A stretch of DNA of 64,000 nt. Origin: Spongiibacter thalassae. GTDB taxonomy: Bacteria > Pseudomonadota > Gammaproteobacteria > Pseudomonadales > Spongiibacteraceae. The notes under the pieces were generated by a model. That model did no database searches and had not been told where the DNA came from. It saw nothing but the letters and a program-made list of their open reading frames with translations. The stretch's first letter is position 1; the number at the start of each line of letters is the position of its first letter. The position numbers were made by a program, and so were the translations under genes. The stretch spans positions 401,451 through 465,450 of the forward strand of contig NZ_JAAWWK010000002.1 of assembly GCF_012272835.1 (NCBI RefSeq), given 5' to 3'. Positions 34,347 to 46,017 of the stretch are shown here, in pieces.

Positions 34347-35086
34347 TCGGGGTCTGTCCCCGGGGACAGACCCCCTAAAATGGCGTCGCGGACGGCTTCG
34401 GCAAACTGCTGCTGATTGCGGGGAGAGTTTGCCCGCAACGCCTCCTCACGGTTCACAATAACTCCCATTTCAATTAATACCGCGGGCATTGTTGCGGTTC
34501 TCAGTACGGCGAGCTCGCCAAACTGGTAGATGCCGAGGGTGGCGTCCAGCAGGGTTCGGTTTTCTCCTTTAATTGGTTCAGCGTGGTGCAGTGTGGGAGT
34601 GAATCCTCGCTGGCGCAGTTCGCGGCCAATGCGTGTCGCAAGTTTCGCACTCGGCCCACTGGATTGGCCGACAAACAGCGAATAGCCTGCAAAGCGGTCG
34701 CAGTAGTGCAGAGTCCGCCCCTGATACTGCCAGGTTTGCAGGTAGTGGGGCTGTACCGAGTCGTGGTGTAGTGAGATAAACAGGTCGGCGTTCACAGCCT
34801 TGGCGCGGGCGGTGCGCTCACTGAGGGCGATGTCATCGCCAGCGGGATTCAATATGCTGGCCCGAAGATTCGGGTGGCGATTTAACAGGTCGGCCAGTGT
34901 CTCTGCCGCATCGCGGTTGTAGTGAAATTCTGCCCGTCCAGTGGCGCTGATGGCGCCAGGGTTGGCGAGGCTGTGCCCGATGTCGATGGCAATGTGCAAG
35001 GGAGCGTTATCGCCGATGCTGTGGCCGGAGTACAGTGTCCACAGCATGAAGGCGAAAAGTCGCGTCCTGAGTTGCCTACCTGTCAT
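34343..35086 (-). CDS. N-acetylmuramoyl-L-alanine amidase (Amidase_3)
   Basis: 247 residues. Hydrophobic N terminus suggesting secretion (FAFMLWTLYSG), then the zinc amidase core: IDIGHSLANPGA (zinc His), EFHYN (zinc Glu), FISLHHDSVQ (zinc His) and the catalytic Glu in AVLIEMGVIVN. It would cut the bond between muramic acid and the stem peptide in the periplasm. The last residues (LSPGTDPD) are encoded by a 26-base palindrome, so the C terminus seems to have been remodelled by that element. It overlaps the upstream MMPL gene by 11 bases. Confidence 0.88.
   Translation of the reverse strand: MTGRQLRTRLFAFMLWTLYSGHSIGDNAPLHIAIDIGHSLANPGAISATGRAEFHYNRDAAETLADLLNRHPNLRASILNPAGDDIALSERTARAKAVNADLFISLHHDSVQPHYLQTWQYQGRTLHYCDRFAGYSLFVGQSSGPSAKLATRIGRELRQRGFTPTLHHAEPIKGENRTLLDATLGIYQFGELAVLRTATMPAVLIEMGVIVNREEALRANSPRNQQQFAEAVRDAILGGLSPGTDPD
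34349..34374. repeat. 26-base perfect palindrome, REP-like
   Basis: GGGGTCTGTCCCC followed directly by its exact reverse complement GGGGACAGACCCC. It sits at the convergent 3' ends of yibL and the amidase gene, and inside the amidase coding region. The form resembles REP elements mobilised by REP-associated tyrosine transposases; no such transposase is in the window. It could also serve as a bidirectional 3' hairpin. Confidence 0.75.
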
Positions 35087-37490
35087 TACCGTACACCTGA
35101 CTGGGATCTCGATGCAGGTAGTGTAGCAGCACTGGCAGCAGCATCAGGTCGGCAAACAGGGCAATGACAATCGCCAGGGCGGTGAGCAGGCCAAACAGCA
35201 CACTGGGAATAAAATCGGAGAAGCCGAGCAGGGCAAAACCACAGGTGATAATCACCGTGGTATAGCACAGCGCGTAACCGACACTTTGGTGGCTGAGCCG
35301 CAGGGCCTCCGCAGAGGAATGTTGCTGCGCTTCTTTGCGAAAGCGATGGACGTAGTGAATGGTGTCGTCAACGGCAATGCCCATGGCAACCGCGGCGATG
35401 GTCATGGTCATAAAGTCCAGCGGAATCCCCAGCCAGCCCATTATGCCGAGGATGGCAGCGGCGGAGAGAATATTGGGCGCCATCGCAGCAAGGGCAATGG
35501 CGAGTGAGCGGAAGATAACAATAAAGGCGATAAACAGCGCCGCGAATACCGTGCCCAGGGTGAGAATTTGGGATTCAAATAGCTGCTCCAGCATGGCCTG
35601 ATAGAGCACGAGAAGATTGCTCAGCTCGATCTGTTCGGCGGGAATTCCCAGGTCGGCAATGCTGGCGCGAAGGTCGCGCAATAAGTCGGCCCGATTCAAG
35701 CCTTCCAGGCTGTCGTGGATACGGGTGCTAATGCGCAACTGTGGAGGATTATCGGTGAAATAGCTGCTGACCAGATTTTCCCGCACTGCGCTGTCGAGGC
35801 TCCAGTAGACGGCGGTCAGTTCGTATTCGGTCAGGGGCTTGTCGTTGTTCATCTCCCGGGCCAGCTGGGTAACATTCACAATGGACAGGGTGGTGCCCAC
35901 GGCGGGAAAGGTTTCAATAGCGGACTGGATCCGCTGGGCCTGTTGTATGTCAACTGCGCGCAGCAGCAGTTGTCCGTCGCGGCCTTTAGCCTCGCGTGCC
36001 GGCGGCGTGTAAATAATATCCAGCGGTGTTGATCCGCCAAACTTCCTGTCGATAAAACTTAGCTCCTGGTACACCTCGGTGTCGCTGTCGAAATAATTGA
36101 TAAAGCTGTTCTCTACGGTGAGACGTAATGCTCCCACAACGCCGAGTATCAGGGCGAGGCTGCTGAGCACGACAATGGTACCGCCACGCCGGGTGCAACT
36201 GCGTTGCAGGGCGGCAACCGGGCGGTCGAACAGGGAGCGGTGATGGCTGTGCAGTGGGCGGCTGAACAGTAATAGCAGCGCCGGAAACAGAATCAGTGTT
36301 GATACCAGACTGATGGCCATTGCCAGTACCATCATCCAACCAAAACTGCTGACCGGTTTAATATCACTCAAAATCAGTGAAGCAAAACCAATGGAGGTGG
36401 TGAGCCCTGCGAAGAAACAGGGTGCGGTTTTTTCCTTAAGAGTGGCGAGGACGATTTCCCGCTGTGAAGCTGACGGGCGCTTGTTGGCCTCTTCGCGGTA
36501 CTGCACGATCAGGTGTATGACCAAAGCGAGGGACAGAATCAGTTGCAGGGCGACAAAATTTGACGAGATTACCGTGGCTTTCAGGCCGAGATTGGCGAAC
36601 AGGCCCAGGGTCACTGCCAGACTGGCGGCGCAGCAGGTCAGGGTGACAAACAGCCAGCGCAGTTGGCGAAATAACAGCAGCAACATGGCGCAGATCAATG
36701 CGGCAATGGCGCTGCCAAACAGCAACAGATCATCCTTGATAATGTTAATTAATTGATACCCCAAAACATGGGGGCCACCGAGGAAAAACTCTCCCTTGTC
36801 GCGGTAGTCGTTGACGATGTCACGCAGGGTTGCGACCTCGCGATGGCGCTGTTCACGCAGGGATTTTTCCAATGGCGCGAGTTGTCGTTCGAGCTGCTCA
36901 AGGCGTTGGTGATCGCCCTCTGATAGTGGGGCGTTCTGAACGCGCCGCTTAAGGCGCAGAATCTTCCGCTCCAGTTGTTCAATCGCGGGATTGCTGCGAA
37001 ACAGCACTTGAATGCCGGTACTGGTCATGTCCCGTGTAACGATAAGGTCTTCGTATACAGGGTGATCGCGGAAGCGTTTGGCGAGTTCTTTCGGCGACAA
37101 TTGCAGATGCTGCTGGGTCAGCTCCTCGGGGTTCAGCCCCTCGTGCAAGGGGCCGCTGTAGCGCGACAGCAGGGGCACATTGATGATGGAGCGCACCGAT
37201 TCCACTCGTTTGAAGGTCAGCAAACGTTCGCTCAGTTCGGCGATAACCGCCTGGCTGTCGCGGCTGAAAACTTTGCCCTGTTTCGGGCGGAAGGCAATGA
37301 TAAGAAATTCTTCCGGAGAAAATTTTTGGCTGATTTCCCGGCTGCGTAAATACTGTTCGTTGTTATCGGCAATCAGGGTGTCGGCCGAGGCGTTGATTTC
37401 GAAATACTGGCTTTGCCACGCAAAATACAGCACCACCCCTAGGGCGAACAATAACAGTGTGCGTGGATAATCAAGGAGTCGATTCAGCAT
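35076..37490 (-). CDS. MMPL/RND-superfamily lipid exporter-type permease
   Basis: 804 residues with about twelve membrane helices in two halves, each with a periplasmic domain, as in the MMPL/HpnN group of RND permeases rather than the 1000-residue drug pumps. Blocks: ADTLIADNNEQYLRSREISQ near the N terminus, FVALQLILSLALVIHLIVQY, and MTIAAVAMGIAVDDTIHYVH near the C terminus with an Asp pair in the helix. HpnN-type proteins move hopanoids or other lipids towards the outer membrane. Placement between an MlaA-like lipoprotein and an amidase supports an envelope lipid role. AAGGACG precedes the ATG. Confidence 0.88.
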   Translation of the reverse strand: MLNRLLDYPRTLLLFALGVVLYFAWQSQYFEINASADTLIADNNEQYLRSREISQKFSPEEFLIIAFRPKQGKVFSRDSQAVIAELSERLLTFKRVESVRSIINVPLLSRYSGPLHEGLNPEELTQQHLQLSPKELAKRFRDHPVYEDLIVTRDMTSTGIQVLFRSNPAIEQLERKILRLKRRVQNAPLSEGDHQRLEQLERQLAPLEKSLREQRHREVATLRDIVNDYRDKGEFFLGGPHVLGYQLINIIKDDLLLFGSAIAALICAMLLLLFRQLRWLFVTLTCCAASLAVTLGLFANLGLKATVISSNFVALQLILSLALVIHLIVQYREEANKRPSASQREIVLATLKEKTAPCFFAGLTTSIGFASLILSDIKPVSSFGWMMVLAMAISLVSTLILFPALLLLFSRPLHSHHRSLFDRPVAALQRSCTRRGGTIVVLSSLALILGVVGALRLTVENSFINYFDSDTEVYQELSFIDRKFGGSTPLDIIYTPPAREAKGRDGQLLLRAVDIQQAQRIQSAIETFPAVGTTLSIVNVTQLAREMNNDKPLTEYELTAVYWSLDSAVRENLVSSYFTDNPPQLRISTRIHDSLEGLNRADLLRDLRASIADLGIPAEQIELSNLLVLYQAMLEQLFESQILTLGTVFAALFIAFIVIFRSLAIALAAMAPNILSAAAILGIMGWLGIPLDFMTMTIAAVAMGIAVDDTIHYVHRFRKEAQQHSSAEALRLSHQSVGYALCYTTVIITCGFALLGFSDFIPSVLFGLLTALAIVIALFADLMLLPVLLHYLHRDPSQVYGNDR

Positions 37491-37543
37491 GGAACGTCCT
37501 TTGTTATATGTCCAGTGCGGTGGCTGGCACCGCTGGATCGTTT

Positions 37544-38407
37544 TCAGCGATCGTTGTCGTCGCCGACATATATTGTTGTGCTGTGATAAAACTCGTCTCG
37601 CCGCTGGCCCTGCAAATACATATTGCGAAAGAACAGATAGGGGTCGTCGGCGCTGTCATATAGCTTTTTGTATACATCGGCGCGACCGGCAAAGGATTGC
37701 AGGGTATCCGCCGCCATAATCAGGCTGGTATCCGGTTGTTCCGTCAGATAGGGCACCGGGTTGGCAAAATAGTCGCCGATGACTCCCGCACCGCCGCGCA
37801 GGTCGGAGGGGCCGAGAAAGGGCAGTACCAGGTAGGGGCCACGACCGCTGCCGTAGGTGCGCAAGGTGTCGGCAAAGCCGGCTCTCTCCTCTTCGAGATC
37901 CAGCCAGGCTTTGGCCGGGTCAAACAGGCCCAGCACTCCCACCGTGGTGTTTAATAAAAACCGTCCGGTCATTCGCCCGGCCTTGGCGGGTTGCCATTGC
38001 AACAGGTGATTAATGATGGAAATCGGCGCTTTGAGGTTGTTGAAAAACTGGCCTATATGGACCTCGACGGGGTCGGGTGTCACCGCTTTGTAAGCCTTCG
38101 CGGTGGGAATCAGCACATAGCGATAGCTGAAGTCATTGAAGCCGAAAATGGCGCGGTTAACACTGATAAGCGGGTCGTAGTAATCGCCGTCAAAGGCGAC
38201 CACGGTGGCCTCGTCGGCGGGGAGGATGTTGGTCTGTGAATAGGGAACCCGGCTTTCCGACGCTTCAGTGCCACCAGTTTCGCTGTCGGCCACCGCCTTG
38301 CCCGCGCAGCCACCCAGTAGGGTGGTGAGCGCTATCAGCAGGATCGCGCCGCCGCGCCGAAGTGTCCGGGTGTCTGTTGTTGCCAGCAATGCGCATCGAC
38401 CGCCCAT
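37544..38407 (-). CDS. mlaA: MlaA/VacJ family lipoprotein
   Basis: 287 residues. Lipobox LGGC with Cys34, then the MlaA core: DPLISVNRAIFGFNDFSYRY, RFLLNTTVGVLGLFDPA, GFADTLRTYGSGRGPYLVLP, FLGPSDLRGGAGVIGDYFANP. MlaA removes phospholipids from the outer leaflet of the outer membrane, together with porins and MlaC. The C-terminal part is longer than the core. It sits 53 bases upstream of the MMPL permease on the same strand, a pairing suggesting joint lipid trafficking. GGGGAG lies before the ATG. No mlaBCDEF genes are near. Confidence 0.92.
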   Translation of the reverse strand: MGGRCALLATTDTRTLRRGGAILLIALTTLLGGCAGKAVADSETGGTEASESRVPYSQTNILPADEATVVAFDGDYYDPLISVNRAIFGFNDFSYRYVLIPTAKAYKAVTPDPVEVHIGQFFNNLKAPISIINHLLQWQPAKAGRMTGRFLLNTTVGVLGLFDPAKAWLDLEEERAGFADTLRTYGSGRGPYLVLPFLGPSDLRGGAGVIGDYFANPVPYLTEQPDTSLIMAADTLQSFAGRADVYKKLYDSADDPYLFFRNMYLQGQRRDEFYHSTTIYVGDDNDR

Positions 38408-38494: not shown

Positions 38495-39400
38495 TCAATG
38501 GGTGCTTTGGGACGGTGGCAAAATACCCATAATGGTGTCGCGCAACCACATAATGGTGGGGTCGTGGTCGGCGCCCTTGTGCCAGAACATATGTAGTTCC
38601 AGTGGCGATGCCTCGAAGGGCAGGGGCTTTTGGCTGAGTGTCCATTGCTGAGCAAGGCTGGCGGGCACCGCAGCGAGATAATCACTTTGGTGCAGCACCG
38701 CCTGCAAGCCCGCATAGTGCTGCAGACGCAGGCCGATACGGCGTTGTTCGCCGACGGCGCGGAGCGCCAGATCAACATGACCGGAACCGCGGCTGCGACT
38801 GGAAATATGCACGTGGCGGTAGGCGAGGAAGTCCTCCAATTGCAGATCGCTGCCAGCCAGCGGATGGTCAGGGCGCATGACACAGACATAGTGATCTTTA
38901 CTGAGCAGGCGCGTGAGCAAGTCGCCGCTGTTGATGAGGGGGGCGTCGATGGCCAATTGCAGATTGCCCCCGGCCAGCTCGACGGGGATGTCGCGGCGAC
39001 GGGTAAACACCACTTCCAGATCGATACCGGGCGCGGTTTTTTCCAACAGGTTGAGCAGCTGCGGCAGCAGGTGCATCTCGGCGTGCTCTGTGGCGTGCAG
39101 GCGTATGGTCTGACGGGCACTGGCGGGGTCGAAGCTACGGCGCAGTTGCACGCAGGACTCGAGGTTTTTCAGCGACTCCCTGATCGGCACAATAAGCTGG
39201 CGGGCGAGGGGAGTCGGGCTCATGCCGGTATTACTGCGCACAAACAGGGGGTCGTCGAGGGCCTGCCGCAGTCGCGCCAGGGCATTGCTGACGGCGGGCT
39301 GGCTGACATGCAGCACGCCCGCGGCGCGGGTGAGGCTCTGCTGACTGTAAATGGCGTCGAATACAACGAACAAATTCAGGTCGATACGCGGTGACTTCAT
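38495..39400 (-). CDS. LysR-family transcriptional regulator
   Basis: 301 residues. HTH at 8-65 with LTRAAGVLHVSQPAVSNALARLR, followed by an effector domain of the PcpR/NahR-like group (DPASARQTIRLHATEHAEMHLLPQLL, DHPLAG). It is divergent from the histidine phosphatase/acyl-CoA operon that starts at 39558, and the AT-rich gap has a dyad, so it probably controls that operon. The inducer may be a CoA ester or hydroxy acid, which is only inferred from the neighbours. Confidence 0.87.
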   Translation of the reverse strand: MKSPRIDLNLFVVFDAIYSQQSLTRAAGVLHVSQPAVSNALARLRQALDDPLFVRSNTGMSPTPLARQLIVPIRESLKNLESCVQLRRSFDPASARQTIRLHATEHAEMHLLPQLLNLLEKTAPGIDLEVVFTRRRDIPVELAGGNLQLAIDAPLINSGDLLTRLLSKDHYVCVMRPDHPLAGSDLQLEDFLAYRHVHISSRSRGSGHVDLALRAVGEQRRIGLRLQHYAGLQAVLHQSDYLAAVPASLAQQWTLSQKPLPFEASPLELHMFWHKGADHDPTIMWLRDTIMGILPPSQSTH

Positions 39401-39449: not shown

Positions 39450-39481
39450 TGATAACAAAAATAAATTTAACTTATTTATCA
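39450..39481. promoter_or_regulatory. AT-rich dyad, candidate LysR operator
   Basis: TGATAA and TTATCA at the ends, with an inner AAATAA / TTATTT, in the gap between the LysR gene and the acyl-CoA operon. The symmetry is imperfect in the middle. Confidence 0.35.
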
Positions 39482-39557: not shown

Positions 39558-40235
39558 ATGCTGGAGATCAGCGTGGTGCGTCACGGTCAGGCGGCCTTTG
39601 GCACCGACGACTACGACCGCTTGACGGAAGTTGGCTGGGAGCAATCGCGCCTGCTCGGTGAGTATTTCGCCAATTGTCAGACCCGCTTCGACGCGGTGTA
39701 TATCGGGGCGATGCGTCGCCATCGTGAAACCTTTGTTGGTTTGCGCGATGTGCTGCCGGACACCCCGGACCCCGAGGTGTTGCCGGGCTTGAATGAATAT
39801 GACTTCCACCGCTTGGCGGAGGCGTATTTGCCCACTCAGGACAGGGTTTACGATATGGCCGACAGCCGCGATTTCTACCGCTGTTTGCGCGCGGCATTAA
39901 TGGCCTGGAGCCGGGACGAGGTGCCGGGGCTGGATGAAAGCTGGCAGCAGTTTGAACAGCGTGTGCGCGCCACAATGGGCCGCATTGGTGAGGCCCGCGC
40001 GCCGTTTTTTGATCAGGGTCGAATTCTGGTGGTGACCTCCGGCGGCGCCAGCAGTGCGATTCTTCGAAATGTGCTGGGCGTTGATGTTGCGACGATGGTA
40101 AACCTGAACCTGCAAGCGAAAAATTCAGGTATCAGCACCTATTTTTGTAAAAACGGACGCTTCCAGCTCAATGCCTTCAACGGTGTGCCCCACCTGGAAA
40201 AACCCCAGGACCGCCATCTGATTACTTACACCTGA
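39558..40235 (+). CDS. Histidine-phosphatase-fold protein lacking the second catalytic His
   Basis: 225 residues. Starts MLEISVVRHGQAAFGTDDYDR, with the phosphate-accepting His9 in RHG, a basic pocket GAMRRHRET, and a late motif ILVVTSGGASSAIL. Active members of this superfamily have HG in that last motif (VSHGG); here the His position is Ser161. The protein may be a weak phosphatase or a phospho-ligand binder. The start is the second of two close ATGs because GAGGAG lies 6 bases before it. It leads an operon with a dehydrogenase and a kinase that handle phosphorylated CoA esters, which gives a plausible reason for a phosphatase-like partner. Confidence 0.8.
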   Translation: MLEISVVRHGQAAFGTDDYDRLTEVGWEQSRLLGEYFANCQTRFDAVYIGAMRRHRETFVGLRDVLPDTPDPEVLPGLNEYDFHRLAEAYLPTQDRVYDMADSRDFYRCLRAALMAWSRDEVPGLDESWQQFEQRVRATMGRIGEARAPFFDQGRILVVTSGGASSAILRNVLGVDVATMVNLNLQAKNSGISTYFCKNGRFQLNAFNGVPHLEKPQDRHLITYT

Positions 40236-40278
40236 TTTTATTCACTTATTTTTGCCCTTGTGCGACAGGAGATATTCC

Positions 40279-41505
40279 ATGGATTTAACAATGAGCCCCA
40301 AGGCCCAGGCCTTGCTTGCCAAACTCGAACAGTTTATGGACGAGCATATTTACCCCAATGAGGAGGCCTACGCTCGGCAGCTTCACGAGCTGGAAAACCG
40401 CTTTGCCATTGTGCCGCTGATGGATGAACTCAAGGCGAAGGCCAAGGAAGCCGGGCTGTGGAATTTGTTTGTGCCCGAGGATTACGGCCAGTACAGCGAG
40501 CATGGCGGCCTGAGCTTCCTCGACTACGCCCCCCTTGCCGAAGTGATGGGCCGGGTGACCTGGAGCCCCGAGGTGTTTAACTGCAACGCCCCGGACACTG
40601 GCAATATGGAAGTGTTTATGAAGTATGCCACTGACGCCCAGCGGGAGCAGTGGCTGACTCCCTTGCTCAACGGGGATATTCGGTCGTCCTATGCTATGAC
40701 CGAGCCCCAGGTCGCCTCCAGCGACGCCACCAATATTGAATTGCGCATTGAGAAAGACGGCGATGAGTGGGTGCTCAATGGCCGCAAGTGGTTTATCACC
40801 GGCGCGATGAACGAGCGCACCAAAATTTTCATTGTTATGGGTAAGTCCGACCCGGAAAACCCCAGTCGTCACAAGCAGCAAACCCAGGTACTGGTGCCCA
40901 AGGGGACGCCGGGCATGAATATTATTCGCCCACTGACGACCCTCGGCTATGACGACGCGCCCATCGGACACGCCGAAATGGTGTTCGACAATGTTCGCGT
41001 ACCGCTTGAAAATGTGTTGTTGGGCGAGGGCCGCGGCTTTGAAATTGCCCAGGGTCGCCTTGCACCGGGACGTATGCACCATTGCATGCGCTTGGTCGGC
41101 GCGGCGCAGCGGTCGCTGGAGCTGGCCTGTAAACGCGCCGTGTCGCGCAGTACCTTTGGCCGGCCGCTGAGCAAGCACCAATCGGTGCGCGAGGAAATCT
41201 CCCGCAGCTTTTCCGAAATTGAAATGGCGCGTCTGCTGGTGCTGAAAACCTGCCGAATGATCGACGAGCAGGGGCCGATGAACACTACTGATATGATTGC
41301 CGCCACAAAAACCACTGTGCCGCTTCTGGTGCAGAATGTTATTGACCGTTGCATGCAAATGCACGGCGCCGGAGGTTTGACGGAAGACTATATGATGGCC
41401 GAGGCCTTTAACTACGCCCGCTGGTGTCGCCAGGCCGATGGTCCGGACCAGGTTCACCAAATGGCGCTGGGCAAACAGATTATCGACCGCTACTCCGGCG
41501 CGTAG
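40279..41505 (+). CDS. Acyl-CoA dehydrogenase of the ACAD10/11-LvaC type
   Basis: 408 residues with the acyl-CoA dehydrogenase fold: AMTEPQVASSDATNIELRI and the FAD region DEWVLNGRKWFITGAMN. Two features set it apart. The block RLAPGRMHHCMRLVGAAQRS is the form seen in ACAD10/11 and LvaC-like proteins, and the C-terminal base motif reads ADGPD (Asp387) where ordinary enzymes have YEGTNE with catalytic Glu. In that group the enzyme works on 4-phospho-acyl-CoA, removing phosphate to give an enoyl-CoA. The kinase gene follows 28 bases downstream. AGGAGA precedes the ATG. Confidence 0.85.
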   Translation: MDLTMSPKAQALLAKLEQFMDEHIYPNEEAYARQLHELENRFAIVPLMDELKAKAKEAGLWNLFVPEDYGQYSEHGGLSFLDYAPLAEVMGRVTWSPEVFNCNAPDTGNMEVFMKYATDAQREQWLTPLLNGDIRSSYAMTEPQVASSDATNIELRIEKDGDEWVLNGRKWFITGAMNERTKIFIVMGKSDPENPSRHKQQTQVLVPKGTPGMNIIRPLTTLGYDDAPIGHAEMVFDNVRVPLENVLLGEGRGFEIAQGRLAPGRMHHCMRLVGAAQRSLELACKRAVSRSTFGRPLSKHQSVREEISRSFSEIEMARLLVLKTCRMIDEQGPMNTTDMIAATKTTVPLLVQNVIDRCMQMHGAGGLTEDYMMAEAFNYARWCRQADGPDQVHQMALGKQIIDRYSGA

Positions 41506-41533
41506 TCGCTGGTCATCTAAACAGGAGATACCC

Positions 41534-42559
41534 ATGTCAGCTTTTGATCTGGATACCGATAAACTCGCCGCTTATCTTGAGGCCAATATCGACGGCTTTG
41601 CCGGGCCGATTACTGCGGAAAAGTTTGCCGGCGGCCAATCCAATCCCACCTATCGCATTGATGCCCGCAGCGGTCGCTATGTGCTGCGACGCAAGCCACC
41701 GGGCAAGTTGCTGAAATCGGCCCATGCGGTAGACCGGGAATATCGGGTGATGAGTGCCCTGGCGGATACCGCCGTGCCCGTGCCGACGATGCGGGTGCTG
41801 TGTGAAGATGAAAGCATCATCGGCTCAATGTTCTATGTGATGGACTTTCTCGACGGCGATATTCACTGGAACGCGGCGCTGCCAGAGCACACCCCTGAAC
41901 AGCGCACTCGCATCTACGACAATATGAACAAGGTGCTGGCTGACCTGCACAATGTGGATGTCGAGGCGGCAGGGCTGGCGGACTATGGCCGTCCCGGCAG
42001 TTACTTCGAGCGTCAGCTCAGCCGTTGGACCACTCAGTATCGCGCCAGTGAAACCGAGCGCATCGATGCGATGGAAACCCTGATCCAGTGGCTGGAGGCG
42101 AATGTGCCCGCCGACGACGGGCAGGTTTGCCTTGCCCACGGAGACTTTCGCTTGGATAATATGATGTTCGCCAAGGGCGACACCGAGGTGATCGCGCTGT
42201 TGGACTGGGAGCTGTCTACCCTTGGTCACCCCTACGCCGATCTGGCCTACCAGTGTATGCAGCTGCGCATTCCCGGTGATGCGGCGATTCCCGGCCTGGG
42301 TGATGTCGATCGTCAGGCGCTGGGAATACCCACTGAGGAGGAATACGTGCAGGCCTATTGTCGTCGCCGAGGCATATCCGGTATAGACCACTGGGCATTT
42401 TATGTGGCGTTTTCCTTCTTCCGCCTGAGCGCCATTTTGCAGGGCGTGTATAAACGCGCGCTGGATGGCAATGCGTCGAGTGACAAGGCGATGGCCTATG
42501 GTGCTCTGGCCAAGCCGCTTGCCGAACTCGGTGTCGGAGTGATTAGCGAAGGCAATTAA
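41534..42559 (+). CDS. APH-family kinase, ACAD11-kinase/LvaA type
   Basis: 341 residues with the aminoglycoside-phosphotransferase fold: nucleotide region KFAGGQSNPTYRIDARSGRYVLRRKPPG, Brenner motif LAHGDFRLDNMMF (Asp204, Asn209) and the metal Asp224 in ALLDWELSTLGHPYADLAY. This subgroup does not act on antibiotics: the fused N-terminal domain of ACAD10/11 and LvaA of Pseudomonas putida phosphorylate 4-hydroxyacyl-CoA. Being next to an ACAD11-type dehydrogenase it probably does the same here. AGGAGA lies before the ATG. An SDR gene follows 41 bases later. Confidence 0.85.
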   Translation: MSAFDLDTDKLAAYLEANIDGFAGPITAEKFAGGQSNPTYRIDARSGRYVLRRKPPGKLLKSAHAVDREYRVMSALADTAVPVPTMRVLCEDESIIGSMFYVMDFLDGDIHWNAALPEHTPEQRTRIYDNMNKVLADLHNVDVEAAGLADYGRPGSYFERQLSRWTTQYRASETERIDAMETLIQWLEANVPADDGQVCLAHGDFRLDNMMFAKGDTEVIALLDWELSTLGHPYADLAYQCMQLRIPGDAAIPGLGDVDRQALGIPTEEEYVQAYCRRRGISGIDHWAFYVAFSFFRLSAILQGVYKRALDGNASSDKAMAYGALAKPLAELGVGVISEGN

Positions 42560-42600
42560 CACAACAACGATTTTAAACCAACTGTAACAGGAGAAAACAA

Positions 42601-43374
42601 ATGGATATTAACGGTAAAGTTGCCATTGTCACCGGTGGTGCATCAGGGCTGGGTGAAGCAACAGTTCGTGCCTACGTGGCCAAGGGCGGCAAAGTTGCTA
42701 TCTTCGATATGAATGCCGAGCGCGGTGCGGCGCTGGTCGAGGAATTGGGCGCGGACAAAGTGTCTTTCCACAACGTAAACGTTGCCGACGAGGCTTCGGT
42801 AAAAGAAGCCATTGATGCGGTGGTGGCCAACTTTGGCGGCCTGCATATCTGTAACAACTATGCGGGTATCGGCAACGCGATCAAAACCCTGGGTAAAGAC
42901 GGCGCCTTCCCGCTGGACGCATACAAAAACGTGATCAACGTAAACCTGATCGGCACCTTCAACGTTGCCCGTCTGGCTGCTGAAGCAATGTCCAAAAATG
43001 TTCCTTACGACGATATCAACGCCCGTGGCGTAATCATCAATACCGCGTCGGTGGCGGCTTACGAAGGACAGGTGGGGCAGGTTGCCTACAGCGCGTCCAA
43101 GGGCGGTGTTGTTGGTATGACTCTGCCAATGGCGCGGGATCTTGCCTCTTACGGTATTCGTGTGAACACAATTGTTCCCGGTCTGATTCACACGCCACTG
43201 TTTGAGTCTCTGCCTGAAGCTGCTTATAAGTCGCTGGAAAACAGCGTGGTAAACCCCAAGCGTCTGGGCCGTCCTGACGAAATTGCACACCTGTCGGTGA
43301 TGATTGCAGAAAACGAGTACATGAACGGTGAGTGTATCCGTCTCGACGGCGCAATTCGTATGCAGCCGCGCTAA
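42601..43374 (+). CDS. Short-chain dehydrogenase, HSD17B10/3-hydroxyacyl-CoA type
   Basis: 257 residues, classical SDR. Cofactor loop VTGGASGLGEATVRAYV with Asp in AIFDMN (NAD preference), NYAGIG, and the catalytic Ser150, Tyr163, Lys167 (ASVAAYEGQVGQVAYSASKG). It resembles type II 3-hydroxyacyl-CoA dehydrogenase. In this operon it could oxidise a 3-hydroxyacyl-CoA or interconvert keto and hydroxy acids before phosphorylation. It starts after ACAGGAGAAAACAA and is followed by an enoyl-CoA hydratase gene. Confidence 0.87.
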   Translation: MDINGKVAIVTGGASGLGEATVRAYVAKGGKVAIFDMNAERGAALVEELGADKVSFHNVNVADEASVKEAIDAVVANFGGLHICNNYAGIGNAIKTLGKDGAFPLDAYKNVINVNLIGTFNVARLAAEAMSKNVPYDDINARGVIINTASVAAYEGQVGQVAYSASKGGVVGMTLPMARDLASYGIRVNTIVPGLIHTPLFESLPEAAYKSLENSVVNPKRLGRPDEIAHLSVMIAENEYMNGECIRLDGAIRMQPR

Positions 43375-43413
43375 CAGACGCTGCATTTTCGATACAACGA
43401 GTGGAGAGAGACA

Positions 43414-44178
43414 ATGAGCGATGAAGTTCTGGTAAGTGTTGACGACGGCATTATGGTAGTCACCATCAACCGTCCTAAGGCCAAGAACTCAGTCAATCTG
43501 GCGGTGGCAAAGGGTATTGCCGCGGCGATGGATGAATTGGACAGTAACGATGAGATTCGCGCTGCCATTTTAACCGGTGCCGACAATACCTTCTGCGCCG
43601 GAATGGATTTGAAGGCCTTCGTCAGTGGCGAAATGCCTGTGCTTCCGGGCAGAGGATTTGCCGGGCTGGTTGAGGCGCCACCGAAGAAGCCGCTGATTGC
43701 TGCGGTGGAAGGTTTTGCTCTGGCCGGTGGTTTTGAGTTGGCGATCACCTGCGATCTTGTGGTGACCTCCAGAGAAGCCAAATTCGGTATTCCCGAAGCC
43801 AAGCGCGGCCTGGTGGCAGCGGCGGGTGGTTTGATGCGCCTGCCCAAGCAAATCCCTCCCCGTATCGCGATGGAAATGGCGATGACCGGCGACTTTATTG
43901 ACGCCCAGCGGGCCTATGAACTGGGTCTGGTCAACCGTGTTGTTGACGCTGGCAGCAGTGTTGAGGCGGCGAAAGCTCTGGCTAAATCCATTGCGGCTAA
44001 CGGCCCCATGGCGGTTATCGGCAGCAAGCGTATTATCAATGAATCAGCGGATTGGACTGAGGAAAATATGTGGGGTAATCAGCAAGCGATTACCGATCCT
44101 ATTTTCAGTAGTGAAGACGCCATTGAAGGGGCGACCGCCTTTGCGGAAAAACGCGCTCCGGTATGGAAGGGCAAGTAA
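43414..44178 (+). CDS. Enoyl-CoA hydratase/isomerase (crotonase family)
   Basis: 254 residues. Crotonase motifs: oxyanion-hole segment NTFCAGMDLKAF and ALAGGFELAITCDLVV. Both catalytic Glu positions of true hydratases are kept (Glu in GGFELA and in FGIPEAK), so hydration of 2-enoyl-CoA is likely. As the last gene of the operon it could take the enoyl-CoA produced by the dehydrogenase/kinase pair into beta-oxidation. A strong terminator follows. Confidence 0.9.
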   Translation: MSDEVLVSVDDGIMVVTINRPKAKNSVNLAVAKGIAAAMDELDSNDEIRAAILTGADNTFCAGMDLKAFVSGEMPVLPGRGFAGLVEAPPKKPLIAAVEGFALAGGFELAITCDLVVTSREAKFGIPEAKRGLVAAAGGLMRLPKQIPPRIAMEMAMTGDFIDAQRAYELGLVNRVVDAGSSVEAAKALAKSIAANGPMAVIGSKRIINESADWTEENMWGNQQAITDPIFSSEDAIEGATAFAEKRAPVWKGK

Positions 44179-44229: not shown

Positions 44230-44253
44230 CGAGCCTCTTTTGAGGCTCGTTTT
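44230..44253 (+). terminator. Rho-independent terminator after the acyl-CoA operon
   Basis: Perfect 8-bp stem CGAGCCTC / GAGGCTCG with a TTTT loop, then TTTT. It ends the 39558-44178 operon. Confidence 0.9.
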
Positions 44254-44344
44254 CGTTTGCGGCTATAGTGGCGCTGGGCGGTGCGGGAGAAAACCGTCGG
44301 GCTGGACTATAGTTAGCTACAGGGTGGCGGAAGGATAGACTAAT

Positions 44345-44868: not shown

Positions 44869-46017
44869 TTACTTGAGTAATTCCCGTCCGACAATCAACT
44901 TCATGATTTCGTTGGTGCCGGCGTAGATGCGCTGAACCCGTGAATCGGCGAAGGCGCGCGCGACAGGGTACTCCCACATATAGCCGTAACCGCCGTGCAG
45001 CTGCAAACACTCGTCGATAAGGCGACATTGCAGGTCGGTGGACATCAGTTTGCATTTGGCCGCGGCAACCGAGTCGAAGGCTTCTTCTATGTGCAGTTGC
45101 AAACAGCGATCGAGATAGGCTTCGGCCACGGTCACATCGGTGTCCAGTTCCGCCAGTTTGAACTGTGTGTTCTGGAAGGTGGAAATGGATTTACCGAAGG
45201 CCTTACGCTCTTTCACGTATTCTACGGTCTGTTCCAGTACCGCCTTGGCATTGGCGATAGCGGTGATGGCGACACTGAGTCGCTCCTGGGGGAGATCCTG
45301 CATCAGGTAGACAAAGCCCATGCCTTCTTCACCCAGCAGCTGGTCTTTGGATACCCGTACGTCCTGGAAGAACAGCTCGGAAGTGTCCTGGGCCTTCATG
45401 CCGATTTTTTCCAGGTTGGCGCCCTTGTTGTAGCCGGGGGTGCCGTCCTCAACGAGGAACAGGCTGACGCCCTTGGCTCCGGCAGAGGGATCGGTTTTGG
45501 CAACAACAATGACCAGGTCGGAAAGCTGGCCGTTGGTGATAAAGGTCTTGGAGCCGTTAATGATATAGTCGTCACCGTCTTTGACCGCGGTGGTTTTGAT
45601 ACCCTGCAGGTCGGAACCGGCACCGGGTTCGGTCATGGCAATCGACATAATTATTTCGCCGCTGACGCACTTGGGCAGGTATTTCTGCTTTTGCGTTTCG
45701 CTGCCGTAGCGAGATACATATGGCACAGCGATGTCAGAGTGCAGGCTCCAGCCGATGCCGGTCAATCCCGCTCGGGCGACTTCTTCATTCACAATGGCGT
45801 TGTAGCGAAAATCGACGCCGACACCGCCGTATTCTTCGGCAACGGTGGGGCTGAGGAAGCCTTGCTCGCCGGCCTTGAGCCACAAATTGCGATCGACGTG
45901 GCCGTCCTTCTCCCACTGGGCGTGATAGGGTGCCGCTTCAGTCTCCAGAAATTTGCGCACGGAGGTGCGGAACATTTCGTGTTCTTCGTCGTAGATATAA
46001 CGTGGCATGGTGCTCAT
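44869..46017 (-). CDS. Acyl-CoA dehydrogenase (long-chain/isovaleryl type)
   Basis: 382 residues, complete. FAD/substrate motifs AMTEPGAGSDLQGIKTTA and YIINGSKTFITNGQ, and the C-terminal signature HGGYGYMWEYPVARAFADSR. The late motif RIYAGTNEI lacks the Glu used by medium-chain enzymes; instead the Glu in LPQERLSVAITAI matches the catalytic position of long-chain and isovaleryl-CoA dehydrogenases. It would start beta-oxidation of fatty or branched acyl-CoA. It is divergent from a thioesterase gene. Confidence 0.92.
   Translation of the reverse strand: MSTMPRYIYDEEHEMFRTSVRKFLETEAAPYHAQWEKDGHVDRNLWLKAGEQGFLSPTVAEEYGGVGVDFRYNAIVNEEVARAGLTGIGWSLHSDIAVPYVSRYGSETQKQKYLPKCVSGEIIMSIAMTEPGAGSDLQGIKTTAVKDGDDYIINGSKTFITNGQLSDLVIVVAKTDPSAGAKGVSLFLVEDGTPGYNKGANLEKIGMKAQDTSELFFQDVRVSKDQLLGEEGMGFVYLMQDLPQERLSVAITAIANAKAVLEQTVEYVKERKAFGKSISTFQNTQFKLAELDTDVTVAEAYLDRCLQLHIEEAFDSVAAAKCKLMSTDLQCRLIDECLQLHGGYGYMWEYPVARAFADSRVQRIYAGTNEIMKLIVGRELLK

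Follow-up and report, generated by a model that had tools for sequence, protein, structure and literature searches.

Gene content of the locus

We analyzed a 64,000-nucleotide stretch of the Spongiibacter thalassae genome (contig NZ_JAAWWK010000002.1, positions 401,451 to 465,450 of the forward strand; referred to here as the window), which holds a five-gene operon resembling a split form of the mammalian enzymes ACAD10 and ACAD11. The source genome is 4.4 Mb in size. The five co-directional genes, at window positions 39558-44178, encode in order a phosphatase-fold protein, an acyl-coenzyme A (acyl-CoA) dehydrogenase (ACAD) of the ACAD10/11 type, an APH-fold kinase, a short-chain dehydrogenase/reductase (SDR), and a crotonase. 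These features, with the evidence for each (including matches to the Protein Data Bank [PDB]), are as follows:

39558..40235, + strand: histidine-phosphatase-fold (PGAM-like) protein, 225 amino acids (PF00300, E = 6e-19)
40279..41505, + strand: ACAD10/11-type acyl-CoA dehydrogenase, 408 amino acids, proposed 4-phosphoacyl-CoA phosphate eliminase (PDB matches, residues, tree)
41056..41091, + strand: RLAPGRMHHCMR block, phosphate-binding helix by homology with ACAD11 (family alignment)
41534..42559, + strand: APH-fold kinase, 341 amino acids, proposed 4-hydroxyacyl-CoA kinase (PF01636, E = 2.5e-53; PDB matches; residues)
42601..43374, + strand: SDR, proposed 3-hydroxyacyl-CoA dehydrogenase (PDB matches)
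43414..44178, + strand: crotonase, proposed enoyl-CoA hydratase (NF006100, E = 3e-119, above cut-off)

The genes are separated by gaps of no more than 43 bases, which leaves no room for an lvaB gene inside the operon, and each is preceded by a purine-rich, Shine-Dalgarno-like stretch ahead of its ATG (read from the sequence). Given that the best Pfam E-values of the five proteins range from 6e-19 to 2e-55 and that the dehydrogenase matches ACAD11 at 7.6e-112, this gene content is not a product of chance. A first-pass annotation, made from the sequence alone, had described the same operon; the genes, motifs, and coordinates that it named are all present among the open reading frames and the Pfam and NCBIfam matches, and a scan of the five genes confirmed its statement that the operon contains no acyl-CoA ligase.

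The dehydrogenase and kinase are of the ACAD10/11 type

Among PDB entries, the dehydrogenase is nearest to ACAD11 (8v3u, E = 7.6e-112; also 2wbi) and to 4hr3 (1.4e-111), with the next ACADs following only at 1.1e-37. It is 46.8% identical to ACAD11 over 389 aligned columns and 26.8% identical to an ordinary ACAD encoded at 44869-46017. For the kinase, the best match is 3dxp (2e-112), followed by ACAD11 (8v3v, 1.1e-79); its identity to the ACAD11 kinase domain is 41.9% over 329 aligned columns. The Pfam and NCBIfam matches of both proteins are generic, and neither protein reaches an NCBIfam cut-off.

In ACAD11, R626, H634, and R637 share one helix beside the catalytic D753, and the HCMR motif is essential (Rashan et al., PMC12440821, which also supplies the residue numbering; this and the other articles given here by PMC number are cited from excerpts of their text). 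The equivalent residues of the window dehydrogenase are R260, H268, R271, and D387, and the first aspartate of its ADGPD motif is encoded at 41437-41439. All four equivalents, three of them within the RLAPGRMHHCMR block, are shared by 47 of 47 family rows; the single ordinary-ACAD outgroup lacks all four. In the kinase, the HGDFRLDN and LDWELS motifs are intact and D204, N209, and D224 are kept; the ACAD11 kinase residues R176, D220, and N225 are present both here and in 48 of 48 rows. ACAD11 R86, for which the mapping was uncertain, was not used.

Phylogenies were built quickly with IQ-TREE from 48 rows each, using only the Shimodaira-Hasegawa-like approximate likelihood ratio test (SH-aLRT) for support; each holds one mammalian row, with one ordinary ACAD. 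The window kinase falls in a group of 40 of the 48 rows that includes the ACAD11 kinase domain (SH-aLRT 97); outside it lie seven rows with 9o56 and the kinases of two other loci from the same genome (L002 and L003), while the kinase of a third (L004) also stands apart. The window dehydrogenase falls in a group of 46 of the 48 rows with the ACAD11 ACAD domain (SH-aLRT 98), leaving outside only the L004 ACAD and the ordinary ACAD. The ACAD11 rows form long branches in both trees. Together, the catalytic residues and the trees back the first-pass proposal of a split ACAD10/11 system that acts by phosphorylation and then elimination, and the grouping away from ACAD10/11 that the annotation had named as speaking against it was not seen: both proteins fall with ACAD11, in trees without LvaA, LvaC, and ACAD10. 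Our search for lva references in 12 genomes guessed to be Pseudomonas-like gave 11 stretches from nine genomes, with a kinase seen in one of the 11 (L186) and no true LvaA or LvaC among them.

The S. thalassae genome (G000) contains 69 ACAD-like matches, of which four are close ACAD10/11-type dehydrogenases (100, 61, 54, and 51% identical to that of the window). These lie at C6:441729, C11:164325, C9:367588, and C1:51084, near two different kinase types. One same-genome locus (L001) is nearer to ACAD11 than the window pair is, at 55.6% for the ACAD and 44.1% for the kinase; the kinases of L002, L003, and L004 are distant from ACAD11 (25-28%). A fifth ACAD (L004:6768-7943, on contig C1) is 35-37% identical to that of the window, retains each of the four ACAD11-specific residues, and has a very divergent kinase nearby (L004:11187-12230); it may represent an additional branch of the ACAD10/11-type family.

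The phosphatase-fold protein lacks the second catalytic histidine

Canonical members of the histidine phosphatase superfamily carry two catalytic histidines. In the phosphatase-fold protein of the window, R8, H9, R54, and E80 are kept and the second catalytic histidine is replaced by Ser161 (codon 40038-40040), an assignment that rests on profile sequence alignment, in which this position stands opposite the histidine of CobC (6nru and 6e4b) and of 9mmh. In another branch of the superfamily, the second catalytic histidine of the PPIP5K phosphatases was once misassigned through sequence comparison (PMC11836120).

The substitution extends across the family. Serine occupies the position in 61 of 61 rows from a set of 293 genomes of the order (referred to here as the order sample; read from the alignment), in 81 of 81 rows of a contig-scan set, and in all 8 plasmid homologues opened. 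Two of the three other histidine phosphatases in the same genome were read (L097 and L098), and both have histidine there. A 21-row alignment (A1) shows no variation at R8, H9, R54, or the acidic residue; in the 81-row set, R8 and H9 occur in every row and R54 in 80. An AlphaFold model of a homologue that is 40% identical to the window protein (L053) has a predicted local distance difference test score of 94.6, and its nearest solved structures are histidine phosphatases (Foldseek E = 2.7e-12).

Co-occurrence and linkage of the phosphatase-fold gene with the pathway

A strong homologue of the phosphatase-fold protein is found in 65 genomes of the order sample. The kinase is also present in 59 of these, as an adjacent pair in 48, and the remaining 6 have the ACAD. 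Counted by hand at the level of genus, the association holds in 20 of 22 (Fisher p = 7e-9, uncorrected for phylogeny). The kinase occurs without a strong homologue in 47 genomes. In a second set, of 299 genomes of the phylum (the phylum sample; cut-offs of 1e-25 for profile A1 and 1e-90 for the ACAD), the homologue is present in 61 genomes, the ACAD10/11-type dehydrogenase in 111, and both in 58 (Fisher p = 7e-27 by genome and 1e-18 by genus, the latter from 40 of 43 genera; again uncorrected for phylogeny). Among rows marked own, same order, or same class, the ACAD is present in 43 of 43 homologue genomes and the homologue in 43 of 45 ACAD genomes. In the rest of the phylum, G468 and G488 carry the homologue but gave no ACAD match at 1e-50, and the match in G482 is only 37%. 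Homologue and ACAD share a contig and lie no more than 6 kb apart in at least 21 of the 61 phylum-sample genomes.

Physical linkage was assessed in three collections. Of 60 order-sample loci, hand-picked down the ranking (most of the top 40 and part of the rest), 48 have a same-strand kinase within 3 kb of the phosphatase-fold gene; in 12 of the 60, neither kinase nor ACAD is near. The corresponding count is 37 of 80 for the contig-scan loci, which are the best 80 of 581 confirmed places, retrieved with a search pattern that did not cover the serine position; because only the best 80 were kept, this set is biased toward relatives of its first row, L053. On plasmids, 44 records have a homologue, and the phosphatase-fold gene adjoins a phosphotransferase/kinase gene in 7 of the 8 loci opened. 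The linked plasmid loci span Alpha-, Beta-, and Gammaproteobacteria, Deinococcus, and Streptomyces and show several gene orders; in a Haematobacter plasmid locus, the phosphatase-fold gene is not beside the kinase gene. No description of the family-wide serine substitution, or of the linkage between this gene and the pathway beyond one cluster, was found in searches of open-licence PubMed Central papers.

A fusion of PGAM and kinase domains, which would have been direct evidence that the two interact, was considered and rejected, as long open frames around the PGAM gene in G330 and G489 hold only the phosphatase domain by Pfam. In one linked operon (G174:C2:1110971-1111971), the kinase reads as two abutting pieces; it may be broken, or the split may be a sequencing error.

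Operon tail, regulatory features, and flanking genes

The top PDB matches of the SDR are 3tl3 and 6ujk (Rv1144), SDRs without a stated substrate; type II 3-hydroxyacyl-CoA dehydrogenases (1e3w, 1e6w, and 1so8) follow at 1e-71 to 1e-68. The tail varies among same-genus or same-family loci, whereas the LysR, phosphatase-fold, ACAD, and kinase genes form a core that 12 of 12 retain. In five further stretches (L193, L194, L197, L203, and L208), a kinase of the family is directly followed by a crotonase 66-73% identical to that of the window, and no phosphatase-fold gene was seen there; such arrangements are a second operon type. Around the operon lie three further features:

38495..39400, - strand: divergent LysR-family regulator (Pfam HTH_1 and LysR_substrate)
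39460..39476, strand not assigned: AATAAATTTAACTTATT, candidate operator in the intergenic region separating the LysR gene from the operon (pattern match)
44230..44259, + strand: terminator-like site with an 8-pair stem, CGAGCCTC/GAGGCTCG, a loop of 4, and a T-rich tail (terminator scan)

The LysR-family gene is the divergent neighbor of the operon in all 12 same-genus or same-family loci fetched (L035-L046). The AATAAATTTAACTTATT pattern, which was written post hoc after inspecting the window and its relatives, has a single match in the window at up to one mismatch and none in 100 shuffles; the core AAT[A/C]AATTT is found in the same intergenic region in 10 of 10 relatives compared, of the 12 fetched. 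The first-pass annotation had closed the operon with a terminator. A stem with a T-rich tail does follow the last gene, but the scan by itself is not significant, since it returned 7 terminator-like sites against a mean of 6.2 expected from shuffles. No RNA element was detected at Rfam gathering scores between 36000 and 48000. Beside the LysR gene, at 35076-38407 on the - strand, lies a gene pair for an MlaA lipoprotein and an MMPL/RND transporter, possibly concerned with lipid transport.

Proposed pathway and its alternatives

We propose that the operon channels 4-hydroxyacyl-CoAs into beta-oxidation, with the substrate and every enzymatic step inferred; the first-pass suggestion that it breaks down lactones is conjectural. 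A ligase encoded elsewhere would form the 4-hydroxyacyl-CoA, and the kinase (41534-42559) would phosphorylate the 4-hydroxyl group at the expense of ATP. The dehydrogenase (40279-41505) would then eliminate phosphate through transient use of flavin adenine dinucleotide, giving a 2-enoyl-CoA with no net redox change. The crotonase would hydrate this product and the SDR would oxidize the resulting 3-hydroxyacyl-CoA, so that the two together would carry the 2-enoyl-CoA to a 3-ketoacyl-CoA, and a thiolase encoded elsewhere would perform the final step. We put the probability that the operon performs ACAD10/11-type kinase and eliminase chemistry (4-hydroxyacyl-CoA to 4-phosphoacyl-CoA to 2-enoyl-CoA) at about 0.82, and the cell very probably oxidizes 4-hydroxy fatty acids through it by phosphorylation and then elimination. 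The chemistry itself is already known in mammals and bacteria.

Two other explanations of the pair were considered. The first, in which the operon pairs an ordinary acyl-CoA dehydrogenase with an unrelated small-molecule kinase, is highly improbable: the generic Pfam and NCBIfam matches would fit such a pair, as would their failure to reach an NCBIfam cut-off, but we rejected it on the trees and the ACAD11-specific residues, the catalytic aspartate and the HCMR block among them, and on the recurrent pairing of the two genes. It is a good deal less improbable, although still unlikely, that the operon acts on something other than a 4-hydroxy fatty acid, such as a cyclic or branched hydroxyacyl-CoA derived from the breakdown of a xenobiotic, terpenoid, or steroid. 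The abundance of ACAD-like matches in the genome is compatible with such a substrate, as is the variation in downstream operon genes among relatives, and the four close ACAD10/11-type copies, which have different neighbors, may differ in substrate. Against this stand the absence, by Pfam, of any ring-cleavage family among the five genes and the conservation of all four ACAD11 residues to which handling of the phosphorylated substrate has been ascribed as a proposal.

Several observations weigh against the pathway as we have drawn it, or against a fixed place in it for the phosphatase-fold protein. The operon genes include neither a ligase nor a thiolase, and the tail is poorly kept even among same-genus and same-family loci, with an SDR at least 80% identical in 2 of 12 and a crotonase at least 70% identical in 5 of 12. 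Identity to ACAD11 is lower for the window dehydrogenase (47%) than for the published LvaC (56%; PMC11342911). The homologue of the phosphatase-fold protein is absent from 53 of the 111 phylum-sample genomes with the ACAD, and from 51 of 66 ACAD genomes in the rest of the phylum, beyond the class. In the contig-scan set, the phosphatase-fold gene lies apart from both kinase and ACAD in 42 of 80 loci, mostly from Burkholderiales.

For these stand-alone serine-type copies (within L121-L178), the kinase was found elsewhere in 19 of 20 genomes searched, drawn from the 42 unlinked loci; the count covers only genomes with an unlinked phosphatase-fold gene, with no kinase baseline for their taxa. Ten open reading frames flanking unlinked copies at four loci (L138, L147, L155, and L163) revealed no shared neighbor: eight belong to unrelated families and two are matchless. 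Finally, a strong phosphatase-fold row lies within 6 kb of only 51 of 136 order-sample kinase rows. Its frequency by kinase identity is 13 of 13 at 70% or above, 34 of 77 at 56-69%, 4 of 41 at 45-55%, and 0 of 5 below that. This tally used the first 71 phosphatase-fold rows (to an E-value of about 9e-29) and excluded the second piece of the split G174 kinase; because weaker phosphatase-fold rows were dropped, it overstates how often the kinase occurs without the phosphatase-fold gene.

Possible roles of the phosphatase-fold protein

The first-pass annotation had treated the phosphatase-fold first gene as a possible departure in wiring from lva. The gene is indeed present, but it proves to be more than an oddity of wiring, being a frequent companion of the pathway that lacks the second catalytic histidine. 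It is seldom seen where the pathway is absent and is often a neighbor of the kinase gene, yet the pathway can lack it; its product thus looks like an accessory or regulatory part. The protein keeps its nucleophile and phosphate-binding residues, and it would most likely bind the phosphorylated intermediate or the kinase and restrain or assist the kinase. A role as regulator of the kinase, suggested by analogy with ACAD10, is our tentative preference, at somewhat less than even odds. The HAD domain of ACAD10 retains one aspartate of its DxD motif, has negligible phosphatase activity, and restrains the kinase by means that the excerpted article describes as not yet known (PMC11342911). In both systems, then, a phosphatase fold appears to have been disarmed, which suggests a common need to limit the phospho-intermediate. 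A broader version is more speculative, at about one chance in three: histidine phosphatases degenerate through this fixed serine would be a near-constant, class-level companion of the kinase and eliminase, acting as regulator or sensor of the kinase, and the ACAD10 HAD domain would have come to the same kind of control independently.

The protein might instead be active despite Ser161 and dephosphorylate the 4-phosphoacyl-CoA, its free acid, or a wrong stereoisomer, as an overflow or metabolite-repair enzyme. The near-invariance of R8, H9, R54, and the acidic residue in the 21-row and 81-row sets speaks for activity, and Habe et al., whose Pseudomonas citronellolis cluster has a histidine phosphatase next to homologues of lvaA and lvaC, suggested phosphate removal (PMC6692424). 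We consider activity unlikely in view of the serine in every row of the 61-row and 81-row sets, and a strong phosphatase next to the kinase would be expected to create a futile cycle. Less likely again is an essential partnership with the kinase, equivalent to that of LvaB with LvaA in P. putida. Here the same P. citronellolis cluster is suggestive, since its histidine phosphatase gene is a neighbor of lvaA and the excerpted text, which reports no lvaB there, also states that LvaB binds LvaA in strain KT2440 (PMC6692424); moreover, the phosphatase-fold gene of linked loci often adjoins the kinase or is one gene removed. On the other hand, kinase operons without the phosphatase-fold gene are common, and phylum-sample genomes of group f21 carry it far from the ACAD.

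The distinction between regulation and activity matters in either direction. If the protein is a regulator of the kinase, two unrelated phosphatase folds, each partly disarmed, would brake the same phospho-intermediate; if it is an active phosphatase, the second histidine of the superfamily can be replaced by serine. The mammalian 4-hydroxy acid pathway was assigned to ACAD10 and ACAD11 only in 2024-2025, and a bacterial companion with a fixed active-site change, found in several phyla, offers a simple system of purified components in which to address control of the kinase.

Comparison with known systems

Published work (PMC12440821 and PMC11342911) describes kinase and eliminase activities for both mammalian ACAD10/11 and bacterial orthologues; both half-reactions were assayed for the mammalian enzymes, and bacterial orthologues replaced either ACAD10 part in vitro (PMC11342911). 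The window pair corresponds to the same two domains by sequence, with the catalytic residues kept. The domains are fused in ACAD10/11, whereas in the window they are encoded by two separate genes of a bacterial operon, which has a PGAM-fold protein in place of the HAD domain of ACAD10. That protein shares its fold, the RHG motif, the second arginine, and the acidic residue with branch 1 of the histidine phosphatase superfamily (CobC, PGAM5, and phosphoserine phosphatase). It differs from branch 1 in the serine at the second catalytic histidine, and identity to the 50 structures listed for the L053 model is 16-21%.

The first-pass label of LvaA/LvaC-like holds insofar as kinase and ACAD are split into a pair, as in the P. 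putida lva operon, which likewise has an SDR gene (PMC6692424). It is otherwise loose. Identity to the ACAD10/11 kinase domains is 29% for LvaA and up to 51% and 38% for bacterial kinases; LvaC is 62% identical to the ACAD domain of ACAD10 and 56% to that of ACAD11 (PMC11342911). At 42%, the window kinase is thus nearer to ACAD11 than LvaA is, and the dehydrogenase departs in the opposite direction, LvaA and LvaC being compared here through published identities only. Among the five genes and the divergent gene there is no LvaE ligase, LvaR-type regulator, LvaF, LvaG, or transporter; the regulator is of the LysR family, and the operon adds the phosphatase-fold and crotonase genes. The levulinate cluster of P. 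citronellolis LA18T differs in gene order and in having a transporter, a ligase, and an LvaR-type regulator, and its excerpted description mentions no serine-for-histidine change, but it resembles the window operon in bringing together a kinase, a histidine phosphatase, an ACAD, and an SDR without LvaB, as far as the excerpted description goes (PMC6692424).

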